Assembly: GCA_021819085.1 (NCBI GenBank)
Contig: JAKASJ010000014.1
Location: 1-64,000, forward strand
Direction: 5' to 3'
Origin: Pseudomonadota bacterium
GTDB lineage: Bacteria > Pseudomonadota > Gammaproteobacteria > Acidiferrobacterales > UBA6901
Length of the DNA: 64,000 nt
Shown: positions 62,061 through 64,000 of the stretch, piece after piece
How the letters are laid out: the number at the start of each line of letters is the position of its first letter
Position numbering within the stretch: the stretch's first letter is position 1
The notes under the pieces: model-generated
The model's database searches: none
What the model saw: the letters and a program-made list of their open reading frames with translations, nothing else
What the model was told of the DNA's origin: nothing
Translations under genes and position numbers: made by a program

Positions 62061-62576
62061 ATGAGCGGTTCCGATACTGAGTGCTGGTTTCTCGTTTACT
62101 CCAAGCCGCGCCAGGAAGAGACGGCGAAACAGAATCTGGAGCGTCAGGGGTACACCGTATATTTGCCGCGCGGGGTCCAAAGCCGGCGGCGTGCCGGAAA
62201 GCGCGTCACGGTAGTGGATCCGCTGTTTCCGCGTTACCTCTTCGTCCGACTGAACAGACAGTCGGACAACTGGGCGCCGATCCGATCTACGATCGGGGTC
62301 GCCGCACTGGTGCGCTTCGGATTGGAGCCGGCGCGCGTGCCCGATACGCTGGTTGCCTTGCTGCGTTCGCACGAAACCGCATCCGGAGTGCACGAGTGGA
62401 CGCTTGCTCCGCTGCGCACTGGTCAGACGGTGCGGGTCGCAGAGGGCGCATTCGCGGGGTACCACGGGATCTTTCTTGCCCGCACGAGCCGCGAGCGGGT
62501 GACCGTGCTGCTCGACATCCTGGGGCGCCCGGTACGTGCGCAGCTAACGGCAGATCAGGTGGATCCGGCGGATTAG
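62061..62576 (+). CDS. rfaH: RfaH-type transcription antiterminator (NusG paralogue)
   Basis: CWFLVYSKPRQEETAKQNLERQGYTVYLP; VVDPLFPRYLFVRL; KOW-like C-terminus FAGYHGIFLARTSRERVTVLLDILG. Confidence 0.9.
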   Translation: MSGSDTECWFLVYSKPRQEETAKQNLERQGYTVYLPRGVQSRRRAGKRVTVVDPLFPRYLFVRLNRQSDNWAPIRSTIGVAALVRFGLEPARVPDTLVALLRSHETASGVHEWTLAPLRTGQTVRVAEGAFAGYHGIFLARTSRERVTVLLDILGRPVRAQLTADQVDPAD

Positions 62577-63286
62577 CCGGCACAGGAACGATCAGCCTCT
62601 GCCAGATCGGTCGGACTGCCATCTATGCGGCGGTGCCCGGCCACCAGGGACCCCTGATCGCTTCCGGCAGCACGATCACGCCGGCGGGGCAGGTCTGACT
62701 GCAGTGACCCAAGACAGAAACGTCCATTACTGCGCCCGGGCGAACCCAGCGGGCGGCGACCTGGGCCAGTTCACTTAGGGCAATGTGACCCTCATGAACT
62801 CGCGCACCCGCGCCCAAATGGAGGCGAGATTTAATTGATAGGTAGTTCCTCCGCTGTTTTTAGCAGGCGCCCGGTTATATCGACACGGTAGATCAGGCCG
62901 CAGCCCTTGACGATAGCTGACTAGGTATTCGACACTGTATAGTAAGATGGCGCCCGTGGCGCAGCAAGGGGCGTGCATACCTGCCAGAATGCAGGTTCTA
63001 CGTGTTGCTTCCGCGCTTTCATTCTGTTCCAGCGCACCTGCGACCCACGGTGAGCCGCTTGCTGATGAATGGTACGGCGACCAAGCCTCGATCGCGAAAC
63101 TTGAGCGACGCGCGAATGGGCGTCTCGTGTTTCTGTATTGATGTCCATGTGAAGGTTGCGCGAAACGGTGGTGCGTTTTCCGCAGAGTGCCGTGTGCATC
63201 AGGCAGTTTGAAGAAATGAGGAGCGCCGGAGCCACGCGGACTGAGCGTTTCGGAAGTCTACCGGGGGGTTCGGCGGACAAGCCATC

Positions 63287-64000
63287 ATGATGAAGACGGT
63301 TCGGACTGCGGTGGTCATGCGCACGCTGCGCGAACAGCCGCTCTGGCGAATGCTTGCCGCCACCAAGGCGCCTGCCATCATTGCATTGCTTCAACAGCTG
63401 CTGCTTGACAGCGACCGTAGTCTGCCGGGATCGATTCTGCATGAGCGTCTGGCACGCGAGCTGAGCCAGCTGAGAGCCGCGGGCGAGGACCTGCCGGAAA
63501 CTGCGCGGCAGTATGTGGCCCAATGGCTGGCTCAGGGCTGGCTGACCCGGAGGCTTCCGCCAGGAGCGAACGAAGAGGAGTATGAGCTTTCTGTGGAGGC
63601 TGTAAGCGCGATTCGCTTCGTCAACGGCATACTCAGACCACGCACGACGGCCACGGAGAGCCGTCTATCGCTGGTCATCCAGCAGCTGGCGCAACTCGCG
63701 GAAGAAACCAACCCCAACCCCACGGCACGCATCCAGGCGCTCAGGGACGAGCGCGAGCATATCGACCAGGCAATCTCCGAAGCCGAACGTAACGGTGTCC
63801 AGGTACTTTCGTCAGATCGTGCGCTGGAACGGGCGCATGAAATCATCGGACTTGCCGAAGAACTGACCAGTGATTTTCGCAGCGTGCGCGATCAGTTCGA
63901 TCGCCTCAACCGGAGTCTTAGGCACAGCCTAATGGAGAACGATGGCAGTCGCGCCGAGGTGCTCGAGCAGCTTTTTGCGGGCGTAGACCTTGTAGCCGAA
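63287..64000 (+). CDS. jetA: DUF3375 protein, likely JetA of a Wadjet system; 3'-truncated by window edge
   Basis: Open ATG frame to window end, absent from ORF track: LPGSILHERLARELSQLRAAGEDLPETARQYVAQWLAQGWLTRRLPPGANEEEYELS...RPRTTATESRLSLVIQQL...LMENDGSRAEVLEQLFAGVDLVAE. Confidence 0.85.
   Translation, partial: MMKTVRTAVVMRTLREQPLWRMLAATKAPAIIALLQQLLLDSDRSLPGSILHERLARELSQLRAAGEDLPETARQYVAQWLAQGWLTRRLPPGANEEEYELSVEAVSAIRFVNGILRPRTTATESRLSLVIQQLAQLAEETNPNPTARIQALRDEREHIDQAISEAERNGVQVLSSDRALERAHEIIGLAEELTSDFRSVRDQFDRLNRSLRHSLMENDGSRAEVLEQLFAGVDLVAE

Follow-up and report, generated by a model that had tools for sequence, protein, structure and literature searches.

Type I Wadjet systems employ JetABC as a dimer of SMC motors that extrude DNA loops, and they leave uncut any DNA that is linear or that forms a circle larger than about 100 kb (PMC10586767). 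Changing the metal-binding residues E236 and D279 of MksG, the C. glutamicum equivalent of the JetD nuclease, severely reduced its cleavage activity (PMC10123090).

The window, by which we mean the whole 64000-base stretch of DNA that was analysed, corresponds to bases 1-64000 of contig C40 in an assembly of 3.42 Mb and 78 contigs. Contig coordinates therefore continue window coordinates over the 18 kb by which C40 extends beyond the window, to 82441. From the ATG at 63287, an open frame of 238 codons runs to base 64000 with no stop, and contains the segments that the original prediction had quoted as resembling DUF3375 proteins. The likeness was borne out by Pfam, the frame matching PF11855 with E=1.3e-74 and aligning to positions 1-229 of the 474 in the profile, and the PADLOC JetA1 profile was matched with E=2e-92; because of these two matches, a chance ORF at 63287-64000 was ruled out. 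The gene had been taken to be cut by the window edge, and jetA does run on past 64000 to a stop at contig 64753. Extension past the window, combined with a check against Pfam and PADLOC profiles, then gave the four genes in order, with the anticipated jetB, jetC and jetD each recognized by the Pfam family and the PADLOC type I profile that would be expected of it. No second DUF3375 gene was found in the same genome. The genes of the locus are as follows:

63287-64000, + strand: in-window part of jetA (DUF3375, kleisin; PF11855, PADLOC JetA1)
contig 63287-64753, + strand: complete jetA, 488 aa
contig 64737-65462, + strand: jetB (DUF4194), 241 aa
contig 65459-68818, + strand: jetC (SMC ATPase), 1119 aa
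contig 68784-69986, + strand: jetD (DUF3322 and JetD_C Toprim), 400 aa

Together, jetABCD spans contig 63287-69986, with all genes on the + strand in the order A-B-C-D and successive gene ends overlapping by 17 (A/B), 4 (B/C) and 35 (C/D) bases. The frames contain no disrupting stops and all four are full length, which rules out a broken or partial operon. Full-length JetA matched PF11855 with E=2.6e-147 and PADLOC JetA1 with E=1.7e-192, whilst JetB matched PF13835 (E=3.1e-42) and JetB1 (E=2.1e-92), JetC scored 1362.6 bits against JetC1, and JetD matched PF11795 and PF09983 in Pfam as well as JetD1 (E=3.6e-130). For all four proteins, the best PADLOC match was the type I subunit, over nearly the full length. 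JetC carries a Walker A motif (GPSGSGKST), a signature motif (SGGQRQK) and a Walker B motif (VMLDEAFDK). In JetD, E257 aligned to the position of residue 248 in E. coli JetD, which entry 8q72 carries as E248A. The residues E257, D300, D302, E374 and E376 were invariant in all 24 JetD sequences compared. With the catalytic motifs in place, all four genes in order and each protein matching a type I profile, we have very little doubt that jetABCD is a complete, apparently intact type I Wadjet operon, of predicted function, within a chromosomal insert.

SMC, kleisin and KITE subunits are common to Wadjet and MksBEF, and JetB showed a weak match to MksE (E=2.9e-6), as might be seen if the operon encoded an MksBEF-type condensin that organizes the chromosome rather than a defence system. 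We consider this highly improbable: MksBEF is characterized by having no nuclease subunit, whereas here the operon includes an intact jetD nuclease gene, and the fit to the type I Wadjet profiles is far stronger than that to MksE. Close relatives, moreover, either are without the operon or have a different one, unlike what is expected of a housekeeping condensin.

The chromosomal site of the operon is bounded by the following features:

62061-62576, + strand: RfaH/NusG-like transcription factor gene (PF02357 NusG, E=6.5e-22), the conserved left neighbour
62621-62695, - strand: TraB-like (carbon-nitrogen-hydrolase-like) gene relic of 75 bp; contig C22 of the same genome has a stretch with 81% identity to it
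about contig 70034-70210, + strand: tyrosine-recombinase relic (gene end), just past jetD (E=3.9e-5, below Pfam's cut-off)
contig 70388-71014, + strand: winged-helix gene, the right neighbour of the insert

The RfaH-like gene is present in all five genomes of the genus and the winged-helix gene in four of the five; beyond the latter lie genes for mannose-1-phosphate guanylyltransferase, adenylylsulphate kinase and ABC-2 export. The gap between the two neighbours measures about 7.8 kb here, with the Wadjet operon. It is 1.2 kb, with other content, in relative G002; in G003 it is 2.4 kb long and contains a gene that by eye resembles an ammonium transporter, and in G004 it extends over 20.5 kb and is filled by other genes. 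None of these three relatives with a readable site holds this operon, and their content differs; in G001 the site could not be read because the RfaH-like gene sits at a contig end. Similarity to the relatives breaks off just past the RfaH-like gene and returns at about contig 70347-70372. The operon thus occupies a site whose content varies between relatives. By eye, a putative MazEF-like toxin-antitoxin pair seems to follow the RfaH-like gene on the - strand in the G002 gap (L063, G002:C129).

The operon is flanked by the TraB-like and tyrosine-recombinase relics, which suggest that it may have arrived with a mobile element. The name TraB-like rests on reading of the sequence, since Pfam gives the C22 copy a weak CN_hydrolase match (E=0.0034), below its cut-off. 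No tRNA gene that could serve as an integration site was found within the 24 kb examined, and a search for flanking repeats marking the insert ends returned only short, chance-like matches. The original prediction had also raised the possibility of further defence genes nearby, but PADLOC identified none among the adjacent genes scanned, where the only hits were cross-matches of an ABC-transporter ATPase, a polysaccharide export gene. A serine-recombinase gene with Resolvase and Recombinase domains lies among the downstream polysaccharide genes (contig 76770-77942; L003:18771-19943); it has an odd C-terminal end and may be frameshifted.

Of 60 related genomes, 16 have DUF3375. Within the order, the JetA of most Wadjets, that of G003 from the same genus among them, belongs to another subgroup, with 26-29% identity to the JetA described here; the JetA proteins of G029 and G019 are 56-57% identical. 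The nearest relative is that of 'Candidatus Muproteobacteria' isolate clean426 (DAIDLH010000029.1, L018), whose operon is made up of the same genes, likewise arranged A-B-C-D (identities of 78% for JetA, 72% for JetB, 80% for JetC and 68% for JetD), but lies in a different neighbourhood. An Abi-like gene (Abi_2, with a PADLOC PD-T4-5 match) lies immediately upstream of the clean426 operon, at L018:6945-7787. The same operon also occurs in the type I Wadjets of betaproteobacteria (Burkholderia, Acidovorax, Rubrivivax and others; L019-L041), with JetC 56-66% identical. In JetA and JetC trees, in which some forks are weakly supported, our copy grouped with the Muproteobacteria MAG, beside a mainly betaproteobacterial group and separate from the majority of Wadjets in its own order. 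As the trees are consistent with horizontal transfer, linking the copy to the Muproteobacteria MAG and then to mainly betaproteobacteria, the operon was probably gained horizontally.

The locus also departs from most of its relatives in a regulatory gene. BrxR-type WYL repressors co-localize with defence systems, Wadjet included (PMC9122601), and a divergent WYL-domain regulator gene (Pfam WYL) adjoins jetA in 16 of 20 related loci (L019, L020, L022, L024, L026, L027, L030-L032, L034, L037-L041 and L058), about 100-200 bases upstream. We read these regulators as putative members of the BrxR family. A TAGAC-containing motif, a possible operator, is common to several of the jetA/WYL intergenic regions (L019, L024 and L041). 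Whereas most of the betaproteobacterial Wadjets (L019-L041) have the divergent regulator beside jetA, neither a WYL regulator nor a relic of one was found upstream of jetA here, and the clean426 operon is likewise without it. Expression of the operon may consequently differ.

The missing regulator, together with the mobile-element relics on both sides (the TraB-like gene and the tyrosine recombinase), led us to consider whether the operon is intact in sequence yet silent or beginning to decay. Relative G004 retains only an N-terminal fragment of jetA in the same gap (G004:C9:127519-127698; L060:8520-8699, - strand), which at first sight fits such a course. However, this fragment comes from another type I JetA subgroup and so provides no evidence for decay of the operon studied here, whose four full-length frames and conserved motifs, maintained over 6.7 kb, suggest continued selection. 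Silence or incipient decay is in our judgement unlikely, and we favour an operon that is apparently intact. We speculate, tentatively and with the balance of probability somewhat against it, that the gap is a lineage-specific hot spot into which type I Wadjets were gained at least two times, once here and once in G004 (the other subgroup, now a fragment), with the WYL regulator dispensed with here and in the nearest relative.

By analogy with the published mechanism, the operon is predicted to cleave smaller circular plasmids. JetA (kleisin), JetB (KITE) and JetC (SMC) would assemble into a dimer of loop-extruding motors; on small circular DNA, extrusion would run to completion and the motors would meet. 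Their meeting would release the autoinhibited Toprim nuclease JetD, and the plasmid would be cut irrespective of its sequence, with larger or linear DNA being spared. A practical prediction is that small circular plasmids may enter this organism poorly unless jetD is removed.

An IFDR motif at the JetB N-terminus is a reported JetD contact (PMC10586767). The motif has no literal occurrence in the JetB described here, although type I systems are not known to share it universally. A phmmer comparison of JetB with solved structures gave no match at E<=0.001. The locus adds a complete type I Wadjet, predicted from its sequence to be functional, for a little-studied lineage; as an ordinary member of the family, it teaches nothing new about the Wadjet mechanism. 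The structurally studied Wadjets (8q72/8as8, 8dk1-8dk3 and 7til) and C. glutamicum MksBEFG (MksG, 8b7f) are distant in sequence from the operon, yet their JetA, JetC and JetD counterparts are homologous over most of their length, and the catalytic residues of the solved JetD and MksG chains are conserved in its JetD.
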